64,000 nt of DNA from Lepisosteus oculatus (Eukaryota > Chordata > Actinopteri > Semionotiformes > Lepisosteidae). This document shows positions 23,236-64,000 of the stretch, in pieces. The notes beneath the pieces were generated by a model, which searched no databases, was not told where the DNA came from, and was given only the letters and a program-made list of their open reading frames with translations. A program made the position numbers and the translations under genes. Location of the stretch: positions 372,001 through 436,000 of the forward strand of contig NW_027168298.1 of assembly GCF_040954835.1 (NCBI RefSeq), in the 5' to 3' direction. The number at the start of each line of letters is the position of its first letter. Positions within the stretch are counted from its first letter, which is position 1.

Positions 23236-24865
23236 CAGTGCCTTGCGAAAGTATTCGGCCCCCTTGAACTTTTCAACCTTTTGCCACATTTCAGGCTTCA
23301 AACATAAATATATAATTTTTTTATTTTATGTGAAGAATCACCAACAAGTGGGACACAATTGTGAAGTGGAACGAAATCTATTGGATTTTTGAAACTTTTT
23401 TAACTAATAAAAAAATGAAAAGTGGGGCGTGCAAAATTATTCGGCCCCCTTGCGTTAATACTTTGTAGAGCCACCTTTTGCTGCGATTACAGCTGCAAGT
23501 CGCTTGGGGTATGTCTCTATCAGTTTTGCACATCGAGAGACTGAAATTCTTGCCCATTCTTCCTTGCAAAACAGCTCGAGCTCAGTGAGGTTGGATGGAG
23601 AGCGTTTGTGAACAGCAGTTTTCAGCTCTTTCCACAGATTCTCGAATGGATTCAGGTCTGGACTTTGACTTGGCCATTCAAACACCTGGATACGTTTATT
23701 TGTGAACCATTCCTTTGTAGATTTTGCTGTATGTTTGGGATCATTGTCTTGTTGGAAGATAAATCTCCGTCCCAGTTTCAGGTCTTTTGCAGACTCCAAC
23801 AGGTTTTCATCCAGAATGGTCCTGTATTTGGCTGCATCCATCTTCCCCTCAATTTTAACCATCTTCCCTGTCCCTGCTGAAGAAAAGCAGGCCCAAACCA
23901 TGATGCTGCCACCACCATGTTTGACAGTGGGGATGGTGTGTTGAGGGTGATGAGCTGTGTTGCTTTTAAGCCAAACATATCGTTTTGCATTGTGGCCAAA
24001 AAGTTTGATTTTGGTTTCATCTGACCAGAGCACCTTCTTCCACATGTTTGGGGTGTCTCCCAGGTGGCTTGTGGCAAACTTTAGACGAGACTTTTTATGG
24101 ATATCTTTGAGAAATGGCTTTCTTCTTGCCACTCTTCCATAAAGGCCAGATTTGTGCAGTGTAAGACTGATTGTTGTCCTATGGACAGACTCTCCCACCT
24201 CAGCTGTAGTTCTCTGCAGTTCATCCAGAGTGATCATGGGCCTCTTGGCTGCATCTCTGATCAGTCTTCTCCTTGTCTGAGCTGAAAGTTTAGAGGGACG
24301 GCCAGGTCTTGGTAGATTTGCAGTGGTCTGATACTCCTTCCATTTCAAGATGATCGCTTGCACAGTGCTCCTTGGGATGTTTGAAGCTTGGGAAATCTTT
24401 TTGTATCCAAATCCGGCTTTAAACTTCTCCACAACAGTATTACGGACCTGCCTGGTGTGTTCCTTGGTCTTCATGATGCTCTCTGCGCTTTCAACAGAAC
24501 CTTGAGACTATCACAGAGCAGGTGCATTTATACAGAGACTTGATTACACACAGGTGGATTCTATTTATCACCATCAGTCATTTAGGACAACATTGGATCA
24601 TTCAGAGATCCTCGCTGAACTTCTGGAGTGAGTTTGCTGCACTGAAAGTAAAGGGGCCGAATAATTTTGCACGCCCCACTTTTCATTTTTTTATTAGTTA
24701 AAAAAGTTTCAAAAATCCAATAGATTTCGTTCCACTTCACAATTGTGTCCCACTTGTTGGTGATTCTTCACATAAAATAAAAAATTTATATCTTTATGTT
24801 TGAAGCCTGAAATGTGGCAAAAGGTTGAAAAGTTCAAGGGGGCCGAATACTTTCGCAAGGCACTG
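23236..24865 (-). mobile_element. Tc1-type DNA transposon, complete and young
   Basis: A 1,630-bp element with long inverted termini of about 215 bases beginning CAGTGCCTTGCGAAAGTATT; the two ends differ at only a few positions. TA flanks both ends (23234-23235 and 24866-24867), as expected for Tc1/mariner. It holds a single intact transposase gene. The uninterrupted form of the site, CACATACATCCTG, is present in the sister segment at about 48714-48726, so insertion came after the duplication. The high terminal identity and open gene suggest recent activity. Confidence 0.96.
23455..24474 (-). CDS. Tc1-like transposase, intact, 339 aa
   Basis: It catalyses cut-and-paste transposition of the surrounding element into TA dinucleotides. 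The N-terminus (residues 1-110) has the two helix-turn-helix regions of Tc1 transposases, with a GRPSKLS linker. The DDE catalytic domain follows: first aspartate in WSDETKIKLFG, second in FQQDNDPKHTA, and the glutamate in SPDLNPFENLWKELK, 34 residues after the second aspartate, as in Tc1. A KHGGGSIMVWACFS block lies between. The length is the usual 340 aa for the family. The start was chosen at the first ATG, giving MKTKEHTRQ. No stop or frameshift is present, so it could encode active protein if transcribed. Confidence 0.96.
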   Translation of the reverse strand: MKTKEHTRQVRNTVVEKFKAGFGYKKISQASNIPRSTVQAIILKWKEYQTTANLPRPGRPSKLSAQTRRRLIRDAAKRPMITLDELQRTTAEVGESVHRTTISLTLHKSGLYGRVARRKPFLKDIHKKSRLKFATSHLGDTPNMWKKVLWSDETKIKLFGHNAKRYVWLKSNTAHHPQHTIPTVKHGGGSIMVWACFSSAGTGKMVKIEGKMDAAKYRTILDENLLESAKDLKLGRRFIFQQDNDPKHTAKSTKEWFTNKRIQVFEWPSQSPDLNPFENLWKELKTAVHKRSPSNLTELELFCKEEWARISVSRCAKLIETYPKRLAAVIAAKGGSTKY

Positions 24866-48997: not shown

Positions 48998-49479
48998 GAG
49001 GCGCAGTTCTTTCTTAAAACGTAATCTGGTGAGCATTTCTAGAATCGTACTTGTATAGATGCAGCCTTTAATGTGTTGCTAGGTTAAAATTGATGACTTC
49101 TTGAACTTCAGTAGGCAACTGCCCTCTTGATTTTGGATTTAATTTCTTTATTACAGGGGCGCTTTTATGAAGACCGAGTCATGTTCAGGTACTTTGCTTG
49201 ATGGAGGAAGCATATTTCGGACTCTGTGATCTGCTCACCTGGAAAGGTCTGCTGTACTACTACAAGAGAGAAGTAGAGTCTGGAAGAATGGACAATTTTA
49301 TGATGCTTTGGAAGATAATGTTTTTTTTTTCTTTGAAATTGAAATGAATCAGAATATCAGTGCAAAAGACAAACTCTTGGTTTGGTTTAAAGAGATATGG
49401 TTTTAAAACAGACAAAATGTAGAAAACAGGTGTTTCTCACTTTTGGAAGAGAATGGACCGGGGGTAATATTTTACAAGT

Positions 49480-52234
49480 TATATAATAGTAAAATATTAT
49501 ATAATAGGGGTAATAGTCGCGAGGGGCTTCAGCTTTTTCGTGCTTAATATGGTGCGCTGTGGCCACGGCAGATATGGGATCTATAAAAGCCGAAAATTCT
49601 CCGATCATTGCCTGACACAGCTCCTCAAAGCTATTACAGACCTCAGGTCCTTGTCTAGACATCCACTCGTGGACCGCTCGGCTGGTAGTTTTCCTTACTA
49701 ACATAGCCTTTTCCTGTTCGGACGCTTCGGGCATAAACTGCAAAGTATATCTCAGCTCATCAATGTAGGTCTCCACATTATTCCCTGACACTGTCGGGTC
49801 AAACCTTTCTACATCTTTGGCTAACTGCCTCAGGGAGTGGAGGTTAATTTTTACAGTTTCTCCGTGGGCAGGGAGACGGCCGTGATCAGGAGCAGGGGGT
49901 CTATGCCTGAATTGAATCGCCCTTGCGTCTCGCGCAGGACTCGGCGATCTCCCCCATGCCGATCCGACCACAGACCCTGGCCGGGAGAAACCTCCTGGGT
50001 GAGCGCTCCGGGCTGCTAGGTGGGCTGGCATGTAAGTGGGATCTAGCCTGTTTTGCTTCCAGTACGGCAGCATCTAACTCCTTTTGCCTTTCCTGGCTGA
50101 GCTCATTTAAACTCTCAATTTCTTTTTCTTTTTCTTTCAAGCTCGCTTCTAGGTCTCTCCTAGCTACCTCAGCCGCAGTTTCTCTAGCAGACAGGTCATC
50201 TAATTTACCTAAAACTTCCCTGAGTCTGTCTTCACTTTCCTCACTTTTCACTCTCTTTTCTCTGATTATATCCAACAACTCAACTCGCTCCGCCTTATAT
50301 CTTTCTAGCTTTCCCTGAAGCGTTTGAAACTTTGTCAGCTCGGACAAAGACAGTTCCAGCTGTTTAGCTAGATTTAAGGCGAAACTAGATAGGACCTGAA
50401 CTGCGTTCACAGACCCTCCTGTGTTAAGCTGGTTCGCTACCTTAGCTACTAAATCTACTTGCAGCTTCTCAATATCATCAAAGTTCAACTTTTCGATACC
50501 GCTCCAGTAACCAGGATTGTCGTCGCTAGAAATAGTACTTATAAGCGACTCCACTTCAGACATTTTAGCAGCCATTGTCATTACGTCAGAGAAACTTTAA
50601 GAGTATTACTTTTTTTCCTTTTACCAAAATACAGTATGGAATCTAAACACCCGAGCAGATGGATTTCCAATCAGCACACGTTACACTAAACGCTAGAAAA
50701 CAGGGGGATTTCTTTACGCAGTTATCAGCACACCCGGTATTCGCGTATAAAAGCCACGGTGCTGTGCTGAACTTGAACTCACAGCAACATCAGTTATTCT
50801 GTGCGATTGAGTCTCATTTCATTCTAAACTCGCCCACCCAGGGACGCCATTAAATGTAGTGGTTTGATGGGTTTACTGAGACACTTATTAATTGTAGCAG
50901 TAATCACGAGGTTGTTCGTTGGGGCTTTTAGAAAATCAATCGCCAGAACAACTAACAACGCACACACACGGGTTCAATACACGAGATACATTTATTAATA
51001 TAAATTGTGCACCAAACATATACTAGTCTGCCTGGATACGAGCGGCAGACCTTACTGTGAGGGTTATCAATATACAAGATATATAATCTCGAAGAGATGC
51101 AAACACAAAGAGATACACAACAGAGAATATATGTCAATATATATCGTTCGGTTACCAAATCGCTAATCAGTGTTATTACCCATTGTTACTCTAAACTCGG
51201 AAGTAAATACATTACTCATGAATTAAATTGATAACAACTTGTGTTGAGGTACAATTGAATTCTCGAGACGCAATGTAGAACATGGGGTTAACTTATCCAC
51301 TGTGTATGGATTTGGAATTTCCCGGCACGAACACCAAACCAGCTGACAAGCTCTGTTGCAGCCTCTGTTCCAGCGGTTGTCCAATGGGCGTTGTGTCGGC
51401 GTCCTCTGGCTACCAGCCAACCAGTCAAGGTGCAGCTCGGAGTAGGACGGGCGGAGGAATCTGACTGCGGCGCGCAGGGCAGTCGTTGCTCCGAGGGGAT
51501 CTACCAGCAGTCCGGCTGGCTAGTAGAAAGTCTCTATGCACAGAGTGTGACCGCGAGTCCTCACAAGTCACTCTTTTGCCTGGGAAGAAACTGGTTCGTT
51601 CCCGGTCCAGCGCTGCTTCTGAATAAGCTATTCAGGTTGTCGACGAGGGTCCAACTGTAGGCTGCCGTTGATCAAACAGAGCATTCACGTTAGTAGAATT
51701 CTGAGTACGTACGGGATGCTTGGCCTCGCGCTTAGAACAAAGTCCAAGTCCCTATGCAGACAACAGCAGTTGTCACGTGATTGTCTCTGAGGATGCGCGA
51801 AAATGGCCAAGGAGAGCCCCGATCTGAGCTTGCGCTCCCTTTTTGACCAAGACACAGATGTGTGCTGATTGGTTGAGAGTTTGGCGGGCATTGGAGACCC
51901 ACGTGGTATTACCACGCCCTGCCAGTCCCTGATTGGTTGGTCAAGGTGAGATATAAGTCACTTACTCTTGACACTTAAGAATGCAGTCCAGATGTCCATT
52001 CAGCACTCCCTAGACAGATAGGCGCCAATGGATGACCATTGATCATGATAGCCAGGCTTAGCTAAGTGCATCCCTGTCTGGGAGCTGTTCCCTATCAAAA
52101 GAAAACAACTTAAATCAGTCTGCATGAATACTTTCTCTGTGGCTGCACCACAGAGATGGGGGGTGAGATGGGGCTTCATTTAGGACAGCATACCAACGCT
52201 TAATTCTGTCTTATTAACAAGCATTGCCGCTACA
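49480..52234 (-). mobile_element. LTR retrotransposon fossil with gag remains
   Basis: Minus-strand element: one LTR of about 1.38 kb (50855-52234, TGTAG...CTACA), then a primer-binding site complementary to the 3' end of tRNA-Asn (about 50833-50851), then a gag-like region with a long coiled coil (about 49500-50581). No pol or second LTR follows. It is broken and truncated. A related LTR lies at 14345-15792. Family unassigned; a Ty3 or retrovirus-like gag is likely. Confidence 0.7.
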
Positions 52235-52254
52235 CTTGTATCCCAACTTTTGCA

Positions 52255-52590
52255 ACTCGCAACTGAAAACCCACTGAAGCTAAGCAGGTGTGAGCCAGGT
52301 CAGTACCAGGATGAGGGTGAGCTACAGGGAAAAACAAAGCTTCCAGCTGGAAGTGGTGTTAATGGGCGCTCACTCTGAGGTCTGTACGGGTCCCAATGTC
52401 CCAATATAGTGACGGAGAAGCTGTGTTGGAAAAAGGGCGCTGTCTTTTGGATGAGATGTAAAACCGAGGTCATAGTGCTCTGTGGTCATTAAAAATGACC
52501 ACCAAAACCTTTGACAAAAGCTCTTGGTAATTGATGGTCTTCAATAATGCTTCTCCTTTAGGTACATTTTAAATCAGCTGAAAAATGCTG
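52255..52590 (+). repeat. 5S rRNA-derived SINE, inverted duplicate
   Basis: Plus-strand copy with head ACTGAAGCTAAGCAGGTGTG and GGTCAGTACCAGGATGAG. It begins 20 bases after the LTR fossil ends, in the inverted version of block A. Confidence 0.8.
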
Positions 52591-52752
52591 TGAAATGGGG
52601 GGGCACTTCAGGCCAGTGTAGGATTTGGGTTACAAGAACTATGAAACTGCACGAGAAAGCCCGTACACTGAATTACACGGCTTTCTATTCAAAGGACAAA
52701 AGAAATTCCCTGAGCTTGATTTTTTGCAGCACAGAGAGGACCACTGTTGTGA

Positions 52753-52826
52753 GGTCGGTTAGCTCAGTTGGTTAGATGGTGGTGCTAGTAACGCCAAGGT
52801 TGTGGGTTTGAGCCGCGTACGGGCCA
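52753..52826 (+). tRNA. tRNA-Ile body with AGT (Thr) anticodon
   Basis: A 74-nt cloverleaf related to the tRNA-Ile(AAT) at 9332. The anticodon loop reads CTAGTAA instead of CTAATAA, so the anticodon is AGT, which decodes threonine codons. The anticodon stem (TGGTG/CGCCA) and D arm TTAGCTCAGTTGG are intact; the T arm reads TGTGGGTTTGAGCCGCG, still mostly pairing. A TTTT run follows at about 52832. It could be an expressed tRNA of changed identity or simply a decaying copy. Confidence 0.7.
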
Positions 52827-54339
52827 GGTCCTTTTCTCCTCTCTTACCAAAGCTGTTAGGTTCCTTTCCGTGGTGAGATGGGTTGTCATGCAACGCTGCC
52901 ACATAGCGCCGACAGACAAGAGTGTTGCGGGAGAAGAGAAATGTGTTTGAAGATTTAAGAGTGTCTTAGGTGCAGCCAAAATCAAGTGTCACAAATGCAA
53001 GTGGTTGGATTTCCATTGTTTAATATGGTAAAAATAAGCGGAAGTAATCTGCCGGTCCGGCACAGTCTGCCATGCTTTTGTCATTTACTGTAAAGTGGTA
53101 TTGAACTGGGTGTCGAACTGGAGCCTCACCATTTGCATATGTGAGGCTCCAGTTATACATCGAGTGTCACATTAAATGACAAAAATGAAGAGAGTTAAAG
53201 CAGCTGGAGAGGTTTTCTTACAACTTTTGAGCTGACACAGTTTTGGAAAATGTTTCCTTCACGCTGCACTGTACAACATAGGCAGCCAAGAGTCTCCAAA
53301 ACAAAACAGAATTGACAGATAGGAGAAAATTCCCACTCGTCCTGAAGTTCCCAAAATCAAGCACTGAGCGTAAACAAAGTGTCTAAGTAGCGTGGGAATG
53401 CTAACCCTAACCCTAGCGTAAAAAGATGAGTCAAAGTAACGTCTAATCGGATTAGTTTCCTTAGAGCTGGTTCAGAGTTTGCTGAAGAGTTTACCCAGTG
53501 GGCACTGATTCGTCGAATATACGTATATTCACGGCGAAAATACGGCTATACGTATATATACGTCGCCTCGACGTATAATCAAAGTCGAATTGCAACCGTA
53601 AAATCGACGACATTAATAAACGCATATATAACGTCGAAAACACATCTAACACAGTGCCTGAGGCTTTTTACTGTATGTATCGTGTGTGCCGCAACTAGGA
53701 GTATATGGCACTCTGCACAGTGTACGAAGTAAATTATTTTCGCAGTAATTAATTTACACGTGTATAATAAATATAGTAAATATAATAAATTAATTACTGC
53801 GAAAATTACTTCGTACACTGTGCAGAGTGCCGTATACTCCTAGGTAAGTTAGGTACATCTTTTTGCCCAAAACTGAAGGGGCGACATTCCTCCCTCCCCC
53901 CGTGATGCCAGGCCTGTCCCCATCCTATTCCATAATGTCATTATACTGTATATAATACCATACAACAGTGACCGATCCTTACTAACTGCATGCGTTAAAA
54001 TTGCACATCAGCTCATAGCAGGGGGCACATAGCCGCGATGTATTATCAATGTTAAATTTCAACCATAATATCGACAACATTAATAAACGCATACGTTGAG
54101 AAAATATCGAACCCAGCATATTTTCCGGTTATATACCACAATGCATTGCTAGTATTCGTTGGTCACCATTTTGGACACGTTTTTCAAACGTAGAAGTATA
54201 TCCGCAAATATCTCAGCAATCCTCTTTTGACGAGTAAGTATGAACAATAATAATACTATCTGAATACATACAGATCTTTCTTAATATTATTTTGATTAAA
54301 ATAGTAAGTGAATAAGCAAAAAATGGCACATAAAAATAG

Positions 54340-54659
54340 TGGAGCTTTTTAAACGTCTGTACTTACTGCGCCCCATAAGAAATCGTTTGTCCCCATTCAA
54401 AAGAGGTTGTGCGATGTCCTGCAGCGTTCGCAAAGCAAACCTTTGACAGTTTGAAAAGAGGAATTTATTCTGCTTCCTGTGCGTGCAGTAGTTACAAAGT
54501 TGAACGTCTTTACACGATCTGCTGCAGTTTTCAGTGGGCGGGCGTTGTCAAATGGCTTGGAAAAACGCACTGTGTTTCGGCTCGGCAAACATCGTGAGCA
54601 GTGTCCTGCATGTTTTCTGTGTATAGCTGTCTTTTAACGCATACAGAATTCATTCGAAA
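54340..54659 (-). repeat. Repeat X fragment inside the family B element
   Basis: About 320 bases of X in inverse orientation, ending abruptly at CATTCGAAAT. It lies wholly between the termini of the 53494-55861 element, so it was captured or inserted. Confidence 0.75.
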
Positions 54660-55449
54660 TGGGGAATGGTGTGAATGGGGAAGATGACACTAAATCGTTT
54701 TGCCGTTTCTCTATTCTTATTCTATGTTGTACTTTCAAACTTTGGGTACTCTTTAATTAGGACAGACTTTATTGCTCAACTTCTATGATGCAAGCCAAAT
54801 TTTATACATTTATTTCAGCTTTGAGCTTAGTAAACCGTTCATTTTTTAGATTATACTAAAGAAGATATTAATCATCATTAATTTGGGAAGTAATATTATA
54901 TAATTTTCTCCTAGCTGCGGTGCTGAAGTCCCGCCCTAAATCAGCAGAAAAAGAAATAAAGGAGCACGCAATGTGTTACTTGAAGAATGCATATGCAAGG
55001 CAGGGGGCCAGGAGATCTGGACACTGAAAATACTAGGTTTTTGGTTCTAACTGTTAGGACAATTACACAGGGTTTGCAAATAGTGGACAAAAATCGTCTT
55101 AACTTCCATTGTAATATTTTTTTTCTTGGAAATATAGAAGTTGTACATTTTAAAATGTATATTTGAATCAAAATGTGGTTTTGAGTTAGTGTGTTAATGT
55201 AATTAGTTTGTGTTTGCCGTTACTATACTGTATATTGCCATATTACCAGAATTTGTAGCTGAAGTTTAAGACTAGTTGTGTTTTTTATGATTATTGCCCA
55301 TATGTTGATTGTTGATTGATTGTATACAATGTATAATTTGAAATACATATTTTTCAGGTGTGAAGGTGTATTTTCAGAATAAATTTCTAAACCAAATCAT
55401 TGGGTTGATTTACTAGTTTCTACACCTGTAAAACCTAACTTTGATGTAT

Positions 55450-55720
55450 AATAGACCTCTACCCATATACGTATAATAGACCTCTAAAGTTATCCGTATA
55501 ATAGACCTCTAACCATATACATATAATAGACCTCTAAAGTTATCCATATAATAGACCTCTACCCATATACGTATAATAGACCTCTAAAGTTATCCGTATA
55601 ATAGACCTCCAACCATATACGTAGACTAGTCCTCTAAAGTTATCCGGAACTCCAACCATATATGTATAATAGTCCTCTAAATTTATCCGTATAATAGAAC
55701 TCCAACCATTTACGTATAAT
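55450..55720. repeat. Minisatellite, 25/50-bp period
   Basis: About five copies of a roughly 50-base unit made of two 25-base halves of the form CCTCTA-x-TATCCGTATAATAGA. The halves alternate between ACCATATAC and AAGTTATCC centres. It grades into the ACGTATA motifs of the element's right end, suggesting growth from terminal sequence. Confidence 0.85.
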
Positions 55721-55861
55721 GAACATCTAATCATAGACGTATAATTGACGTATAACAATAGACGTATATTAGAATTTCATTCTAGACGAATTGCAGACCA
55801 CATTTAGACGTCTAAGGTATGCGTTTAATAGACGTATATTATACGTCTTTTGCCCACTGGG

Positions 55862-56402
55862 TTACGTCTCAACAGAAACGCTCTTTAGCTCTTTCAGTGT
55901 TATGCAGAGAACAGCGTCTGTCGAGATCACTTTTGAGTCAGCGCGAAACGCCGTGTGCTGTCAGTTTGATTTCATATTGCTCGTAGCGGCGCCCGGCTTT
56001 TGTCTGTCAAACGTTAGGTTGCGCTTCTTCATGCTGCATCGTCGACATGAGTGGAGCTTTTTAAACGTCTGTACTTACTGCGCCCCATAAGAAATCGTTT
56101 GTCCCCGTTCAAAAGAGATTTTGCGATGTCCTGCAGCGTTCGCAAAGCAAACCTTTGACAGTTTGAAAAGAGGAATTTATTCTGCTTCCTGTGCGTGCAG
56201 TAGTTACAAAGTTGAACGTCTTTACACGATCTGCTGCAGTTTTCAGTGGGCGGGCTTTGTCAGATGGCTTGGAAAAACGCACTGTGTTTCGGCTCGGGAA
56301 ACATCATGAGCAGTGTCCTGCATGTTTTCTGTGTATAGCTGTCTTTTGACGCATACAGAATTCATTCGAAATCATTGATTTCTCCAATTATCAAGGGTCC
56401 CT
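55862..56402 (-). repeat. Repeat X, copy 5
   Basis: Inverse copy of X beginning TTACGTCTCAACAG and ending at the AATTATCAAGGGTCCC edge, followed by block Y up to 56525. Confidence 0.8.
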
Positions 56403-56524
56403 TAAAGGATGAGTCAAAGTAACCTCTAATCGGATTAGTTTCCTTAGAGCTGGTTCAGAGTTTGCTCAAGAGTTTACCTTTCACAGATGTGCAAAGAAGA
56501 ATGTTGGGGGTGCACGCTTCAAGG

Positions 56525-56738
56525 TGCCTTACAGTGCGTTGTTTCCGACACAGTGTGGCCGGGTGTTTTCCGAGTTATCGCACGGATTGGGCACGCTCGC
56601 AAACCGTGAGCCGCAGGCGATGAGCCCGGAGCTGAACGGGCCCCACTGGCTCGTTTGTAAGGCCAGGTGTATTGCCAACCACGACCGGCAGGGCAGAGGC
56701 CTTGAAGGCGGCCTGGGCTCCTGCAGCTGTGCAGCCAT
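56525..56738 (+). promoter_or_regulatory. Upstream promoter region of the first U5 gene
   Basis: The 134 bases nearest the gene match the U5/U1 intergenic promoter at 58102-58233 in inverse orientation, and the distal part matches 57038-57120. The position and conservation fit the proximal sequence element zone of an snRNA promoter; an exact PSE could not be fixed by eye. Confidence 0.5.
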
Positions 56739-56857
56739 GCATTCTGGTTTCTCTTCATCTCGTACAAATCTTTTGCCTTTTACTAAAGATTTCCGTGGAG
56801 AGGAGCATGAATGAGTTCCATGCAATTTTTGTGCTTCCCTGCCTTCGGGTGGGGCGC
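56739..56857 (+). ncRNA. U5 snRNA gene, copy 1
   Basis: Spliceosomal U5 RNA. It has the 5' stem (TCTGGTTTCTCTTCA), the invariant loop I (GCCTTTTACTAAAG), the opposing strand TTTCCGTGGAGAGGA, an Sm site (CAATTTTTGTG), and a terminal hairpin CCCTGCC-TTCG-GGTGGGG that pairs along all seven positions. A snRNA 3' box follows. Length about 118 nt, normal for U5. The 5' end starts GCATTCTGG where ATACTCTGG is usual, a small deviation. Likely transcribed by Pol II. Confidence 0.88.
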
Positions 56858-56877
56858 AGCCTGGCTGGTCAAAGAGA

Positions 56878-56889
56878 GAAAACAAAAAC
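56878..56889 (+). promoter_or_regulatory. snRNA 3' box of U5 copy 1
   Basis: GTCAAAGAGAGA, fitting the GTTT-N(0-3)-AAARNNAGA consensus in its second half exactly. It lies about 20 bases after the U5 3' hairpin, the normal place for Integrator-dependent 3' end formation. Confidence 0.7.
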
Positions 56890-57010
56890 GCTCGCAATCG
56901 GTCTTGTTATGGCGATTGTGGCAGTCTGCTCCGCGAGTCCTCGGTCTCCGGCCGTCTGATTGGCGCTCTTTTCTTTGGGGGGTGGGAAGTGTCCGGCCGC
57001 AGGGGATCTT

Positions 57011-57165
57011 GGGACCTCGCTTTGCATAGCGGCTTCCCAGAGTGCGTCGTTTCCGGCACAGTGTGGCCGGGTGTTTTCCGAGTTATCGCACGGATTGGGC
57101 ACGCTCGCAAGCCGTGAGCCGCAGGCGATGAGCCCCGAGCTGAACGGGCCCCACTGGCTCGTTTG
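57011..57165. promoter_or_regulatory. Orphan fragment of the U5/U1 promoter region
   Basis: Matches 56525-56670 but adds an octamer-like word (CTTTGCAT, inverse ATGCAAAG at about 57019-57026) typical of snRNA distal enhancers, and it stops at GTTTGTAAG, before any U5 sequence. It is joined directly to repeat X. A truncated duplicate. Confidence 0.5.
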
Positions 57166-57172
57166 TAAGATC

Positions 57173-57590
57173 TGCGGCAGATCGTGTAAAGACGTTCAAC
57201 TTTGTAACTACTGCACGCACAGGAAGCAGAATAAATTCCTCTTTCAAACTGTCAAAGGTTTGCTTTGCGAACGCTGCAGGACATCGCACAATCTGTTTTG
57301 AACGGGGACAAACGATTTCTTATGAGGCGCAGTAAGTACAGACGTTTAAAAAGCTCCACTCATGCCGACGATGCAGCATGAAGAAGGGCAACCTAACGTT
57401 TGACAGACAAAAGCCGGGCGCCGCTACGAGCAATATGAAATCAAACTGACAGCACACGGCGTTTCGCGCTGACTCAAAAGTGATCTCGACAGACGCTGTT
57501 CTCTGCATAACGCTGAAAGAGCTAAAGAGTGTTTCTGTTGAGACGTAACAAGCTTGTTTCTTTCTACCATGATGTTACCATGACAAAATC
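57173..57590 (+). repeat. Repeat X, copy 6, downstream of U4
   Basis: This copy ends at the 3' box of the U4 gene at 57609-57754. It may therefore show the original setting of X: the DNA lying 3' of a U4 gene. Confidence 0.75.
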
Positions 57591-57602
57591 TGTCTTTAAA
57601 CA
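57590..57602 (-). promoter_or_regulatory. snRNA 3' box of U4
   Basis: On the minus strand GTTTAAAGACAGA, a perfect match to GTTT-AAARNNAGA, about seven bases after the U4 3' hairpin. Confidence 0.85.
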
Positions 57603-57608
57603 CCTTGC

Positions 57609-57754
57609 TCAGTCTCTGACGAGACTGTCAAGAATTGCTTTCGCCGATTGTATTGCAAACCGGCGGAAGCGGGGTATTGGGAAAAGTTTTCAACTAGCAA
57701 TAATCGCGCATCGGCTAAACCTCACAGGCTACGATACTGCCACTGCGCAAAGCT
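57609..57754 (-). ncRNA. U4 snRNA gene
   Basis: Spliceosomal U4 RNA, about 146 nt. The 5' end AGCTTTGCGCAGTGGCAGTA is identical to vertebrate U4, as are GCGCGATTATTGCTA (stem I with U6) and TTGAAAACTTTTCCCAATAC. The central hairpin (GCCGGTT/AATCGGC) has changed but still pairs, and the 3' hairpin CAGTCTC/GAGACTG is intact. Two changes could matter: the Sm site reads AATTCTTG instead of AATTTTTG, and the kink-turn bulge strand reads CCGATG instead of CCGAGG. It may be a variant or an early pseudogene. A perfect 3' box follows. Confidence 0.88.
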
Positions 57755-57960
57755 GACGGTTGCCAGGCAACCGCGTGGATCCTATGGAAATCGTTATCAA
57801 TCGTCTCATGGCATGTCGTTGCTGTAACGCTTCATATTTGCGGCCGGACACTTCCCGCCCCCCAAAGAAAAGAGCACCAATCAGACAGGCGGAGACCGAG
57901 GACTCGCAGAGCAGACGGCCACAGTCGCAGTAATAAGAGTGATTGTGAGCGGTTTTGTTT

Positions 57961-57972
57961 TCTCTCTTTGAC
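57961..57972 (-). promoter_or_regulatory. snRNA 3' box of U5 copy 2
   Basis: Minus-strand GTCAAAGAGAGA, the same word as after U5 copy 1, placed about 12 bases after the U5 end. Confidence 0.7.
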
Positions 57973-57983
57973 CAGCCCAGCTG

Positions 57984-58101
57984 CGCCCCACCCGAAGGCA
58001 GGAAAGCACAAAAATTGTATGGAACTCATTCATGCTCCTCTTCATGGAAATCTTTAGTAAAAGGCAAAAGATTTGTACGAGATGAAGAGAAACCAGAGTG
58101 C
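57984..58101 (-). ncRNA. U5 snRNA gene, copy 2 (divergent from U1)
   Basis: Loop I GCCTTTTACTAAAG, Sm site CAATTTTTGTG and the TTCG-capped 3' hairpin are all present. The stem strand TTTCCATGAAGAGGA differs from copy 1 (GTGGAGAGGA) but pairs better with TCTCTTCA, so structure is kept. It starts GCACTCTGG. The gene points away from U1, with 132 bp between the two start sites. Likely functional. Confidence 0.88.
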
Positions 58102-58233
58102 GTGGCTGGACAGCTGCAGGAGCCCAGGCTGCCTTCAAGGCCTCTGCCCTGCCGGTCGTGGTTGGCAATGCACCTGGCCTTACAAACGAGCCAGTGGGGC
58201 CCGTTCAGCTCCGGGCTCATCGCCTGCGGCTCT
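58102..58233. promoter_or_regulatory. Shared bidirectional U5/U1 promoter
   Basis: 132 bp between U5 (-) and U1 (+). For U1, a PSE-like CACCTGGCCTTACAAACGAG (58171-58190) ends about 44 bases before the start, the correct spacing; its ACC and AA..GAG parts agree with the vertebrate U1 PSE. An octamer-like ATGCAATT word lies inside the neighbouring U5 gene of copy 1, about 220 bp from the corresponding U1 start. The whole intergenic block is conserved at 56606-56738. Confidence 0.55.
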
Positions 58234-58265
58234 CGGCTTACCTGGCAGGGGAGATACCTTGATCA
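58234..58265 (+). ncRNA. U1 snRNA gene, nucleotides 1-32 (interrupted)
   Basis: CTTACCTGGCAGGGGAGATA matches U1 nucleotides 4-23, including the 5' splice-site recognition sequence, and continues through GATCA (nt 28-32). The first three bases are CGG instead of ATA, and nt 26 is T instead of A. The gene then stops because a retrotransposon begins; nucleotide 33 resumes at 63403. The interruption falls in the loop of stem-loop I, the U1-70K binding site. Confidence 0.93.
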
Positions 58266-58332
58266 GCCTGTAGTTGGAGTAGTTGGATTGTTTTCTTGTT
58301 TTGTGGAAGCAGTGTTTGTTTTGCAGTTTGAG

Positions 58333-59760
58333 ATGGCAACCTTTGGATCCCGCAAGAATGCTGTACGTTTTGAGCTTTTGGATGACCTCTTCATGGATCG
58401 TATGCAGTTCAGCAGAAAAGTGTTACAGAAGGAACTTGGCTTTGAACCTCGGCACTTGGATTTCATCTTTGCTCTCCCAGGTCAGAAAGCATTTGAGGTT
58501 GTATTTGGTACCTATCCTCTGTTTGAACAATGCGTGGATGTGTTTGAGGCAAAAAGAGGGAAAGTTCCTGCACTTGAGAAGATCAACTTGCAGCCTCTGA
58601 CACAGAGAGAGAGGAAAACGGTGCATGTTGTTATGTTCTCGGAACTGGCAAAGACGGAGGACATTCACACCTGGCTTAACCAGTACTGCACCGTCCACCA
58701 TGGAACTGAGGTTAGAGATGTTGACGGTATAAAAACAGGAGCAAGGAAATTCGAGGTTCGCTTACTACCGGACAATGTAAATGGAGGCTTAAGGCACCTG
58801 CCCTCTACAATCCGGCTGGGCGCCTGCAATGGCTATGTTTTTTATGTGGGACAACCAAAGGTGTGTCGGCGCTGTGGTGCTGTGGGACACCTGGCATCTT
58901 CCTGCACTGTGAAATGCTGCAAGACCTGTGGCAAACAGGGACATTTAGCCTCTGACTGTTCAATGCTGCCAAAGTGCAATTTATGTGGCTCGGAAGGACA
59001 CGTTTTTAAGAACTGCCCTCACGCCTACGCCAATAAACTCAAAATGAGAAAGGATGAGGCAGTGCTTGTTTCAGCCAAACCGGCCCGAAAAGCCAAAGCA
59101 AACAACAAGTCAAACAAAGAACCCTTGTTGGACAAAGAGTCTCAGCCTCCAGCCAGGATCAGTCCTGCTGTGGCTCCGGGGCCGGTGGAAGAGAAATCCA
59201 CTGCGCTCCCACAACCGCAGACTGCACCAGACAAGCACGAGGGTTTGAAAACCCCCGAGAACAGCGAGGACCCCTCCCCCACTCCTGCTCCTCAGAACGA
59301 GGGCCAGTGTGGGGCCCCCCGGTGGAGCGGGTCCAGCGACGATACCCAGGATTCAGCGGAGCTGCTTTTCTCAGACTCTGCAAGTGCTACAGATGCCCTC
59401 CTCTCCTCCATCCAGTCCATCACGGAGGATCTGCAACAGCTGGTGGGTGAGGGGGAAGAGGAGACTGGTGCATCGGCTGCACCCCTTTCCCCTCAGTGCT
59501 CCCAGGAGCTGGACTTGAGGAAAAGGAAAAATGACTCTGTTTTCTCCCCGAGCGAGGAGGAAGGAGAGAATGGCGATGGGGACAGCTGGAACCCCTCCAC
59601 CCCTCCCTCTACCCCCTTCCTTGAAATGGACTCCGTGAATGCTTTTACTGCTGCCACCCTGATGAAGGCTCATTCAGAGGATGGCTGGCAGGAAATTGGT
59701 AAGAAGAAAAAGAAAAAGAAGAAGGTAACAGGTGAGACCGAAGAGAAATGTGTTTTGTAA
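58333..59760 (+). CDS. LINE ORF1 protein with three CCHC zinc knuckles, 475 aa
   Basis: Nucleic acid-binding ORF1 protein of a Tx1-type LINE, expected to coat the element RNA. It starts MATFGSRKNAVRFELL. Three gag-like knuckles of CX2CX4HX4C type lie at residues about 178-230 (CRRCGAVGHLASSC, CKTCGKQGHLASDC, CNLCGSEGHVFKNC). The N-terminal 170 residues are probably an RNA-binding domain; the rest is low-complexity, acidic and proline-rich, ending in a lysine run (GKKKKKKKKV). The frame is open far upstream through U1 and U5 DNA, but the first ATG inside the element was chosen. The end overlaps a possible upstream ATG of ORF2. Intact. Confidence 0.92.
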   Translation: MATFGSRKNAVRFELLDDLFMDRMQFSRKVLQKELGFEPRHLDFIFALPGQKAFEVVFGTYPLFEQCVDVFEAKRGKVPALEKINLQPLTQRERKTVHVVMFSELAKTEDIHTWLNQYCTVHHGTEVRDVDGIKTGARKFEVRLLPDNVNGGLRHLPSTIRLGACNGYVFYVGQPKVCRRCGAVGHLASSCTVKCCKTCGKQGHLASDCSMLPKCNLCGSEGHVFKNCPHAYANKLKMRKDEAVLVSAKPARKAKANNKSNKEPLLDKESQPPARISPAVAPGPVEEKSTALPQPQTAPDKHEGLKTPENSEDPSPTPAPQNEGQCGAPRWSGSSDDTQDSAELLFSDSASATDALLSSIQSITEDLQQLVGEGEEETGASAAPLSPQCSQELDLRKRKNDSVFSPSEEEGENGDGDSWNPSTPPSTPFLEMDSVNAFTAATLMKAHSEDGWQEIGKKKKKKKKVTGETEEKCVL

Positions 59761-59786
59761 AGACTGGTTCCACTTTCTTATGTAAT

Positions 59787-62700
59787 ATGGCTCTAAACAT
59801 AATTTCTCTTAACACCAGAGGTATCAATGACGGAGTTAAATGTCAGTGTGTCTTTGATTACCTCCAGCAGAGAGAGGGAGATGTGTTGATGTTGCAGGAG
59901 TGTGCTTTAGCCTATCAAGAGAGGTATAAAAGCTTTGAAGATAGGTGGGATAAAGGGCCTTCTGTTTGGTCAGGGGACAATAACAACAGAGCCTCTGGCG
60001 TGGCCATTCTTTTCAAAGGATGGGCTTTCAAATTGAAAAGTATTCAGAGGGTCATAGATGGCAGGTTGCTGTGTGTGGATGTGGAATGGGGGACCGTTAA
60101 CCTGCGGCTAATCAATGTGTATTGTCCTACTGACGTGGGAGGAAGGGTGGAGCTACTCAAGGCACTCTCTCCCCTATTGTTAAGTAGCACAGACGTGATA
60201 GTGGGAGGGGATTTTAATTGTATCTTAGAGCACACAGACAGGCAGTCTAGCTCTCCGATAAAATTGGATTCCAGCTCACTGGCCCTGCAAAACTTAGTTC
60301 AAGACTTTAAACTCTCAGACACATATAGATGTATATATCCCACAACAGCAGGATATGCATGGTCAGGGAGGAATAGCAGCTCCAGAATTGACTATTGCTT
60401 TGTCTCAGAGAGAGTGAAAGTTGTTGGGGTCACTCTTCAGCCTGTCTTCTTCTCAGATCATCAGGCTTTAGGGTGTAGAGTGGAACTCCAGGGCGGGACT
60501 GTCTTTGGCCCAGGCCTCTGGAAACTCAACACAAAGCTGCTAGAGAACGAGGGGGTAGTATCCCGCTACAAGGAGAAACTATCACAGTGGCTGTCCTTGC
60601 AGTGTCTGTACGGGTCAGTAGGAGAGTGGTGGGAGGAGGTGAAGATGAGGACAAAGACCTTTTTCATGGCTGAGGGAAGGAAGGCTGCTGCCAGACGGAG
60701 AGGAGTGCTAGCCAGGAAACAGAGGCAGCTGCAGCGTCTCTACACGATGCTGCACAGTGGCTTCGATGTGCTCGAGGATATCACCCTTTTAAAAAAGGAC
60801 ATCCGGAGCATAGCCGAAGAAAGTAGTCGAGGAGTGCTGTTAAGAGGCAGAGTGCAGTTCTTGGAAGAAAATGAGAAGTGTACTCGCTTCTTTTTCAGGA
60901 AAGTGGTAGGCTCCAAGTCTGTCATGGAAAGTGTAGTTGATGAGGAGGGACGAGAGAGAACAGAGCCGAGTGCTATCCTCTCCTGCACCAAGGCCTTCTA
61001 CTCAAGACTGTACAGCTCTACAGAGGTAAAGGATGAAGAAATTCATTTTTTTACCTCAAAGCTAGAAAACGTTTTGAGTGAAAAGATAGGGAAGTACTTG
61101 AGAGGGATTTGACAGTAGAAGAGCTGAGACAGGCTATGGAGAGCTTACAGAAGGGGAAAACTCCAGGTGCTGACGGGCTCCCTAAAGAATTTTATTGCAC
61201 CTTTTGGGATCTGCTTCAGGATCCGCTACTGGTCCTATTCGAGGAAAGATATAAGACAGAATTGCTGCCTGACTCCTTAAGAGAAGGCACTATCTCTCTC
61301 TTGTTTAAGAAAGGAGCAAAAAATGACATAAAGAACTGGAGACCCCTCAGCCTGTTAGGCGTGGACACTAAGATCCTGTCCAAAGCCCTTTTCCTGCACC
61401 TACAAAATGTAGTGGCCTCACTGGTAGGGAAAGAACAGACTTGTGGGATAGCAGGACGCCTGATGAGCGACAACCTGGCCTTGTTGAGGGATGTCTGTCT
61501 GTACTCTGAGGATCGCTCCCTCCCTCTTTGCATTTTAGGTGTAGACCTAGAAAAGGCCTTTGACCGCCTAAACCGGCAGTACTTAACATCGGGACTTGAG
61601 CACATGAAGTTTGGCCCCATCATGAGAAAGTGGATTAACCTGCTGTACACAGGTAGCAACAGCAGAGTCATGGTTAATGGCAATAGATCACGCCCCTTTG
61701 AAGTCTGTTCAGGGGTGAGGCAGGGCTGCCCATTATCCCCCTTGTTATGCGTTTTGGCTATGGAGCCCTTAGCCTGTGCCTTGCGCCAGGATCAGGCCAT
61801 TAATGGGATACCAGTGCCTGGAAGTGGGGGAGGAGAGGTAAAGACATCTCTATACATGGATGACGTCACCCTGCTCCTCTCTGACAATGCCTCAATTAGC
61901 AGAGCTCTGCAGTGCTGTGATCGTTTCTCTTTGGCTTCCTCCGCAAAAATTAACAAATCTAAGAGTGAGATTTTTTATCAGAACTGGAGGGAGCCAAAAG
62001 AAGGACATGATCTCAGGCTGCAAGAGAAGAGAATTAAGGTCCTGGGGGTGTATTTTGGAGAAGAGATGGGAACAGTAAATTGGCAGAACAAATTGCCAAT
62101 CTTAAACAAAAAACTGATGCAATGGAAGGACCGAGACCTCACCATGACAGGGAAGGTGCTGGTCATCAAAGCCGAGCTCTTGCCTGTCTTGAATTTTCTG
62201 GCTTCTACCTTCCCAATCCCACACCGTGTTGCGGCGGTGCTGAGGAGATTGATGTTTCAATTTCTATGGGGTGGGAAGCAGGAAAGACTCAGAAGGGAAA
62301 TAATGTACAGGCCGCTACCCTCAGGGGGGAAGTCTGTCCCAGATATTGCTACGAAGCTGCTGTGCATTTTCCTGGCCTCTGTGCTGAGAGGCTTTGCAAC
62401 AGCACCTGCAGCGCGTACCTGGACTTATTTTTCCAGGCTCTGGGTAGGTAGGGAGGTGTTCAGAGTGTGGGGTGTCAGACCCAAGCTGGACGTCCCACTC
62501 TCTGACACATGCCCTGCAATTTATGGGACAGTTAAAAGTTTTCTAAGATCTCACCCAATTGGCCATATTCCCCTCCGAGATGTCAGCGTCCAAAAACTGG
62601 AAGATTTCGTTGCACCCCAGAACAATAGGCAGACCCATGTGGGCATTTTAACATCAGCCCAAACAAGGAAGGTGTGGAAACACACATCCTCTAAGTTTCT

Positions 62701-63205
62701 GTGCAACATTCACAGAGATTTAGCCTGGAGTGTCGTCCACCAGTGCTTACCGGTACGAACTTTCTTGTACCGTAGGGGCCTCACCCCCAGCCCTCGCTGC
62801 GTTAGGGTGGGCTGCGGCGAGGAGGAGACTGTATCCCATCTCCTGTGGTCCTGCTTTTTTGCTAAGGCCTTCTGGGCACAGTTTGAAGATTGGTTGCTGG
62901 CTCTCTCGCCCCAATTTACCCTGACCGCTGCTTTCGTCATATACGGCATCTCTCCTGTCAAACTTCCTCCTGACGTGTTTGACAGGATCTGGGCCGTGGT
63001 GAACAGTGGGAAAGTTGCCCTGTGGAGAGTGAGGAACATGGGGCTGTTCAAAGGCATCGAGATCCCAGTCAAGGCAGCAGGTAGCCTGGCCCTGTTCATC
63101 ACCCGAGAGAACTATTACCTCAGAGATCTGTGGAGAGAAGGGAGGGAGGAAGCAGAAAATCTGTGGGAAATAGAGAGCATAGGTCAATATCTCAAGAAAC
63201 TGTGA
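59787..63205 (+). CDS. LINE ORF2: APE endonuclease and reverse transcriptase, one frameshift
   Basis: Start chosen at MALNIISLNTRGIND, where APE-type endonucleases begin; an in-frame ATG at 59748 overlaps ORF1. Endonuclease motifs: LNTRG, LQE, GGDFNC, SRIDYCFVS, SDHQAL (residues 1-240). A single frameshift near 61085-61109 separates the endonuclease/linker part from the reverse transcriptase part, which reads on from LTVEELRQAM. Reverse transcriptase motifs: NWRPLSLL, LGVDLEKAFDRL (A), GVRQGCPLSPLL (B), YMDDVTLLL (catalytic YxDD), LGVYFG. Near the C-terminus, CVRVGCGEEETVSHLLWSC gives a CX4CX7HX4C finger like that of L1-type ORF2. Total about 1,140 codons, the usual size. It primes reverse transcription at the nicked target DNA. 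Confidence 0.92.
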
Positions 63206-63402
63206 AAAACATTATCAAGTTTAAGTAAAGAATGTGATTTGCACCAGAAAAAAAGAAAATTGTTGCTATGTAACTGTTACCATGTCAAAATGTAATGAGA
63301 TGTGATCATATATACTGTTTTAAGTATGTATATGAATGTAAAGCTTTCTGATTTGTGATGTCCTGTATTTTTTTGTGAAAAGAAAATAAAGTTCTTAAAA
63401 AT

Positions 63403-63534
63403 CGAAATCGGTTCACCCAGGGCGAGGCTCGGCCATTGCACTCCGGCTGTGCTGACCCCTGCGAATTCCCCAAATGTGGGAATCTCGACTGCATAATTTC
63501 TGGTAGTGGGGGACTGCGTTCGCGCTCTCCCCTG
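63403..63534 (+). ncRNA. U1 snRNA gene, nucleotides 33-164 (interrupted)
   Basis: Colinear with U1 nt 33-164 without any indel: CGAA (33-36), CCCAGGGCGAGGC, CCATTGCACTCCGG (U1A loop), GACCCCTGCGA, TCGACTGCATAATTT (Sm site region), GGTAGTGGGGGACTGCG and the end CTCCCCTG. Changes at nt 95 (T to A) and nt 113 (A to T) restore each other in stem III, and stem II carries a similar coupled change, so the gene had been under structural selection before it was split. The usual length of 164 nt is met when both parts are counted. Confidence 0.95.
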
Positions 63535-63542
63535 ATGTGCTT

Positions 63543-63556
63543 GGTCCAAAATCAGA
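63543..63556 (+). promoter_or_regulatory. snRNA 3' box of U1
   Basis: GGTCCAAAATCAGA, with AAAATCAGA fitting AAARNNAGA exactly, nine bases after the U1 3' end. It confirms a genuine U1 locus rather than a retrocopy of U1 RNA. Confidence 0.82.
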
Positions 63557-64000
63557 TACGGGAGGGTTAGGACACCACGAGCTGCGTGGCTGCGGAAGGA
63601 TCCCGGTTCAACAGGAGTGGACGCCGCTGCTGCTTTTAGTTAGGGGTCCGGAGAAGCATCTCAAGCTAGTTCCACTACTCCTTCCGGACGTTCATTCCCT
63701 TTTCAAAGTCAGTCGTTTTGCTGTAGTCTGCGTTCTTTAGGCTGATTATCGAGGTTAGCCTTTATTTGGTCATGGGGGGCCTCGGTACTGTATGCTGAGT
63801 CTAAAGACAGTTTCACCCGTTTTCTGATTGCTCGGTTCTGTACCAGTGCAGACATGTCAAACAGTGAATGGCTGTACCTCTATTGTATCCGTGCTCAATG
63901 AATGAAATCGGTAACAAATGAATATATGTCTAGTTATACGAAAAACGAGTGGTTTATCGACTCATCTTCATTTGCAGATTTAGAGGCAGCTTCGATATTC
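63557..64000. other. No feature recognised
   Basis: DNA downstream of U1. No tRNA, snRNA or repeat shared with the rest of the window was noticed. Confidence 0.5.

Follow-up and report, generated by a model that had tools for sequence, protein, structure and literature searches.

A LINE between nt 32 and 33 of a U1 snRNA sequence

The window analysed here, a 64,000-nt stretch of Lepisosteus oculatus DNA, carries a cluster of tRNA and snRNA genes, with 21 tRNAs predicted by Rfam (20 by ARAGORN), two U5 genes, one U4 gene, and one U1 gene. A LINE insert of 5137 bp (58266-63402) lies exactly between nt 32 and 33 of the U1 sequence, dividing it into a short head and a long tail (Table 1). When human U1 was compared with the window by BLASTN, the tail was recovered as U1 nt 40-164 at 63410-63534 (92% over 125, E 2e-48), and beyond head and tail the four further listed matches all had E ≥ 1.2. 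Once fused, head and tail form an ungapped 161-nt alignment to human U1 with 147/161 identical positions; the reference in this and the other U1 comparisons below is human U1, not a gar U1. The single U1 match at the Rfam gathering score spans 63365-63534, with LINE bases replacing the first part of U1.

Both junctions can be read to the base. The head is followed by G instead of the C of U1 nt 33, and the tail is preceded by T instead of the A of U1 nt 32. Because of these mismatched bases, the junctions are unambiguous and entail zero duplication and zero loss of U1 sequence. BLASTN and the reading of the junctions therefore bear out the original prediction that colinear U1 segments, nt 4-32 ending at 58265 and nt 33-164 starting at 63403, enclose a LINE of ~5.1 kb without target duplication. 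The start of the U1 sequence had been placed at 58234, which is three bases early: U1 nt 1-3 are missing, with CGG in place of AUA, and the head begins at 58237. The proposed location of the site in the U1-70K loop also stands, since the U1 snRNP crystal structure places C31, A32, C33, and G34 among the loop I contacts with U1-70K (PMC4383343); these residues span nt 32/33, so that our U1 numbering agrees with the structure and the insertion site falls within loop I.

Table 1 Features of the interrupted U1 locus. BLASTN matches are to human U1.
Feature	Position	Strand	Evidence
U5 unit abutting the U1 head; matches the other U5 unit (57001-56601, minus) as far as U1 nt 4-6	57839..58236	.	401 bp at 93.3%
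U5 snRNA gene (U5b), next to the U1 head and divergent from it	57988..58101	-	Rfam RF00020 86.9 bits; 3' box motif at +19
U1 snRNA nt 4-32 (head)	58237..58265	+	BLASTN 28/29 identical, E 3e-8
LINE 5' UTR, 67 nt	58266..58332	+	Sequence
ORF1, 475 aa: two ZCCHC3-type RNA-binding domains, three CCHC knuckles	58333..59760	+	Pfam; motifs; match to Atractosteus spatula P0121
ORF2, first part: APE-type endonuclease	59787..61112	+	Pfam PF03372 (Exo_endo_phos) E 4.8e-15; motifs LQE, GGDFN, SRIDY, SDH
ORF2, second part: reverse transcriptase and zinc finger	61109..63205	+	PF00078 (RVT_1) E 4.9e-34; PF13966 (zf-RVT) E 5.5e-8; YMDD
LINE 3' UTR, ending in AATAAAGTTCTTAAAAAT; AATAAA at 63385-63390	63206..63402	+	Sequence
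U1 snRNA nt 33-164 (tail)	63403..63534	+	BLASTN; Rfam RF00003 93.9 bits; stem-loops II-IV 32/32 pairs
3' box motif AAAATCAGA, starting 14 nt past the U1 tail	63548..63556	+	Fits AAARNNAGA; background ~0.011 per 30 bp

Domain content and relatives of the element

ORF2 is split by one frameshift near 61.1 kb, with its catalytic motifs retained. At a Pfam threshold of E 0.001, no restriction-like or other nuclease family besides the APE-type one was detected in the element, and an Rfam scan of 52000-64000 gave no ribozyme family at E values up to 0.5. An APE-type endonuclease joined to a reverse transcriptase in ORF2, together with a separate ORF1 carrying CCHC motifs, is the arrangement of the Tx1 clade as judged from Pfam and motifs; the L1 clade has the same ORF2 part, so this domain set alone does not decide the clade. 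Against solved structures, the reverse transcriptase half best matched the LINE-1 ORF2 protein (E 2.8e-55), with R2 weaker (E 1.2e-19).

A protein search with the reverse transcriptase, which scored the 8000 candidates with the most words in common with it, found 384 proteins, of which 120 were listed; the best 24 of the 384 (P0001-P0024) are 44-54% identical to the window sequence. A quick tree combined the window sequence with 73 of the 120 listed proteins, all of ≥600 aa and consisting of the first 70 and some further named ones. In it the window falls together with these same 24 proteins (25 rows, SH-aLRT 100), and Danio proteins named "pol-like" and "transposon TX1" are placed elsewhere, apart from this group. 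The program warned of long branches, located elsewhere than in the window group. Assignment to the Tx1 clade is tentative, being based on motifs and the annotation of relatives rather than on a Repbase-referenced tree.

A close relative of ORF1 comes from another gar: 365/379 residues are identical to Atractosteus spatula protein P0121, a match that by itself points to a probable gar host. The ORF1 search returned 23 proteins, one named as gar, and the endonuclease search 104, none named as gar. The A. spatula protein belongs to a cluster of 13 sequences; this number may reflect multiple copies of the element, though it is no proof of them.

The upstream junction and its U5 flank

On its left side, the U1 head directly adjoins a U5 unit that matches the second U5 unit of the window. 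Left of U1 nt 4, the adjoining 60 bp are identical at 59/60 positions to the second U5 unit and at 55/57 to a third copy of the flank, and identity over the 40 bp right of this point falls to 13/40 and 14/40, respectively. The two copies that continue past the break are themselves 39/40 alike there and may therefore count as one. This collapse of U5-flank homology at U1 nt 4 indicates that the head starts at a breakpoint, which adjoins the 5' end of U1 RNA; the junction between U5 unit and head bears a microhomology of 2-3 nt (CTT/TTT).

An assembly misjoin at 58237 within a repetitive snRNA array might produce such a break, and the U5 units are indeed 93.3% alike over 401 bp. We nevertheless rate this as highly improbable, given that the break falls at the U1 RNA 5' end and not within a long repeat, and that the joined sequences share just 2-3 nt.

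A simpler history would be plain insertion by a U1-targeting LINE into one U1 gene that stood back to back with U5, the loss of nt 1-3 and the U5 flank belonging to that gene's own past. Perfect colinearity of head and tail without a gap fits this account, as do the closely spaced snRNA genes on both strands of the window. The flank block common to the third copy also opens at 58179, a point 55 bp upstream of U1 nt 1, which is presumably about where the U1 proximal promoter element should lie, so that a native U1 promoter may be present left of the head. A search with a promoter-element consensus gave 8/13 matches upstream of U5a, U5b, U4, and the U1 head alike, a level also reached (at least 8) in 1093 of 2000 random 90-bp stretches and therefore uninformative. 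Against plain insertion, nt 1-3 do not read AUA and U5 homology ends right beside them; together with the stem-loop evidence given below, this leads us to consider it rather unlikely, though deserving of serious weight.

The same region includes a 129-bp block present twice at 97% identity (56533-56661 and 57041-57169), one copy upstream of U5a and the other without an adjoining snRNA found; the latter is possibly a relic promoter. A tandem array with a 25/50-bp unit (55446-55773) also adjoins the snRNA genes.

Stem-loop pairing across the insertion

Downstream, the tail resembles the end of a real U1 gene. The 3' box of snRNA genes has the consensus AAARNNAGA, and a motif of this form, found in the window also behind U5a (+16), U5b (+19), and U4 (+16), begins at +14 from the tail, which suggests that the tail is a genuine U1 gene end.

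One strand of stem-loop I is supplied by the head and the other by the tail, and it is there that pairing is impaired. Using pairs taken from ViennaRNA folds of single stem-loops, 8/11 pairs of stem-loop I form, and three of the four pairs changed relative to human no longer form. In stem-loops II, III, and IV, which lie entirely in the tail, 32/32 pairs form and none of the four changed pairs is broken, two being kept by two-sided changes. The loop of stem-loop I comprises 10 nt in the ViennaRNA fold vs. 11 in the crystal paper (PMC4383343), which makes its outermost pair, 27/38, unsure. The mispairs can be read from the joined sequence itself, whereas which positions count as changed is determined by the choice of the human reference.

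Folded alone, the joined stem-loop I reaches -6.2 kcal/mol vs. -11.6 for human; a hybrid of the window head with human nt 33-48 reaches -12.1 kcal/mol, and one of human nt 16-32 with window nt 33-48 only -6.2 kcal/mol. These hybrid folds and the pair counts suggest that head and tail derive from two different U1 sequences, each sound in itself. A point against this is that minimum-energy folds of the full-length RNAs showed no difference in strength (joined U1 -60.8, human -59.9).

Changes relative to human are also unevenly spread, with 5/16 positions affected in nt 33-48 compared with 8/116 in nt 49-164 (Fisher p 0.0099). At least one of these eight tail changes is normal for fish, since the Dada-U1 target duplication in zebrafish reads GCGAAT or GCGAAC (PMC3706591), giving A at nt 95. 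Plain insertion would attribute the mispairs to decay, but three broken pairs in stem-loop I vs. 0/32 in stem-loops II-IV count against it, as does the uneven density of changes, which is not expected of uniform decay. The original prediction of a LINE inside one U1 gene is accordingly true of the sequence as it now stands and probably not of its history, as a native-looking U1 5' flank is lacking and head and tail mispair.

Possible origin by a U1-targeting LINE carrying a U1 leader

What is observed at this one locus comprises the exact junctions, the domains of the element, a U5 flank whose homology breaks off at U1 nt 4, mispairing in stem-loop I, and the 3' box motif. From these we propose that a U1-targeting LINE brought a U1 leader from an earlier home into a variant U1 gene that lost its 5' part, a scenario that we regard as moderately probable. 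The APE-type endonuclease would nick the bottom strand of U1 between nt 32 and 33, within the U1-70K loop, and reverse transcription would be primed at this nick, copying the LINE RNA. This RNA would have been made from the U1 promoter of the occupied gene, and so would start at or near U1 +1 and carry a U1 leader of ~32 nt. The present copy would then have entered a second, variant U1 gene, represented by the tail with its 3' box, and the leader of the earlier home would have come along as U1 nt 4-32. The leader end of the cDNA may have been joined to the upstream U5 unit at the CTT/TTT microhomology, with the target's own 5' part and promoter lost in the joining. That the element is specific for U1, that it is transcribed from the U1 promoter, that it nicks at nt 32/33, and that the locus is a chimera joined by this route are inferences from a single locus.

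In favor of this leader-carrying origin, head and tail are exact complements at nt 32/33 with unambiguous junctions, and the 5' UTR is 67 nt long, without a ribozyme family among Rfam matches; a U1 start site 32 nt upstream would make a ribozyme unnecessary for forming the leader. If the chimera reading is right, the end of the head (32) records an earlier insertion and the start of the tail (33) a later one, so that the same site was hit twice. Weighing against it, the evidence comes from one locus only, that of the single copy in the window, the pairing argument consists of three mispairs, and a similar mispairing pattern could arise if the tail decayed once the element was in place. The earlier suggestion of a U1-targeting LINE is supported in so far as U1 sequence flanks an APE-type LINE on both sides at one exact site, for which U1 targeting is the best explanation, but the plain colinear insertion that accompanied it overlooks both the U5 join and the mispairing.

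Two other explanations bear on the head and on specificity. The reverse transcriptase might have jumped from the LINE RNA onto mature U1 RNA, thereby creating the head; in Drosophila ambigua, the 5' junction of some R2 copies includes a 5' part of U12 snRNA, accompanied by a 48-bp 28S deletion (PMC3414825). Such a jump would have had to land exactly at nt 32, just where the tail, starting at 33, takes over, and we give it very little credence. Alternatively, a LINE lacking strict specificity may have hit the U1 gene by chance. Here, too, the single locus counts, and contigs from viruses, bacteria, and archaea yielded no relative with informative flanks. Viral contigs contained no relative with the reverse transcriptase half alone as query, one distant locus at 30% with an alignment as query, and no match to U1 nt 4-25; bacterial and archaeal genome contigs contained 10 related loci, the best at 37%. 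For the 11 loci L001-L011, Rfam gave one match, which is not an snRNA. A chance hit nonetheless appears improbable: a U1 gene is a tiny target, two events would have struck one site if the chimera reading holds, and the insertion lacks a target duplication, unlike those of most non-specific APE LINEs, which make them. Template jumping, chance insertion, and misassembly are all ranked below the leader-carrying origin.

More tentatively, and with some doubt, we suggest that a U1-specific LINE, by residing ~32 nt downstream of a strongly used RNA polymerase II start, would obtain a short target-homologous leader from the host start, achieving ribozyme-free what R2 achieves with a ribozyme, and that the locus represents two successive hits at the same site.

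Comparison with known elements in snRNA and rRNA genes

Several known systems share parts of this arrangement. Keno, of the Tx1 clade, is likewise an APE-type LINE in snRNA genes, found in fish, frogs, and other animals, but its target is U2 and its 3' flank is identical to that of Utopia (PMC4640811), whereas the 3' flank here is U1 from nt 33. U1 sequence lies on both sides of the present element, and no U2 match at the Rfam gathering score occurs in the window. Utopia similarly has an exact 3' boundary in an snRNA gene; it differs in having a restriction-like endonuclease and in targeting U2, with downstream U2 starting at nt 39 (PMC4640811). For Phytophthora copies of Utopia, no 5' U2 fragment was found upstream, and the authors leave recombination open (PMC4640811). 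In place of the restriction-like endonuclease of Utopia- and R2-type elements, Pfam at E 0.001 identifies an APE-type domain here.

R2, which occupies 28S rRNA genes, is co-transcribed with its target, and the target-derived 5' end of its RNA can guide the 5' junction (PMC3414825, PMC11331408). Target homology at the template 5' end yields precise 5' junctions by annealing, with end-joining otherwise (PMC11331408). The 5' end of R2 RNA is formed by a ribozyme (PMC3414825), whereas here the U1 start site would set the ~32-nt leader. Dada-U1 DNA transposons also reside in fish U1 genes but encode a DDE transposase, generate target duplications, and use another U1 site, GCGAAT/GCGAAC (PMC3706591, PMC8869645). 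The present element instead has a reverse transcriptase, no duplication, and a site at nt 32/33. Kojima 2015 reportedly described crocodilian SINEU SINEs with U1- or U2-derived heads, moved by a Tx1-clade LINE. Their U1-derived 5' heads are as seen here, but they are SINEs and are said to target a Mariner element. This SINEU work is cited in PMC5753468.

Among the papers listed in searches of the open full-text literature, no U1-targeting LINE appeared; such a family may yet be described in Repbase or in subscription papers. Pending a survey of copies, we consider the element a candidate target-specific LINE with a probable new target. If this is true, U1, a highly conserved gene, would join the natural targets of LINEs, with a cut in the U1-70K loop, and nearness to a host start site could replace leader processing. 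R2, a target-specific LINE, has already been used for RNA-templated transgene insertion (PMC11331408), and it would be useful to compare it with an APE-type element that naturally carries a short leader.

Other features of the window

Outside the snRNA genes, about 20 tRNA genes of mixed kinds are spread over both strands from 1508 to 48353. The minus strand at 49387-50581 has two open frames, 228 and 226 aa long, that overlap and lack a Pfam match at E 0.001. Also on the minus strand, 23455-24474 holds an uninterrupted 339-aa frame for a Tc1/mariner-type transposase, with a Sleeping Beauty HTH, a Tc3-type HTH, and a DDE_3 domain.
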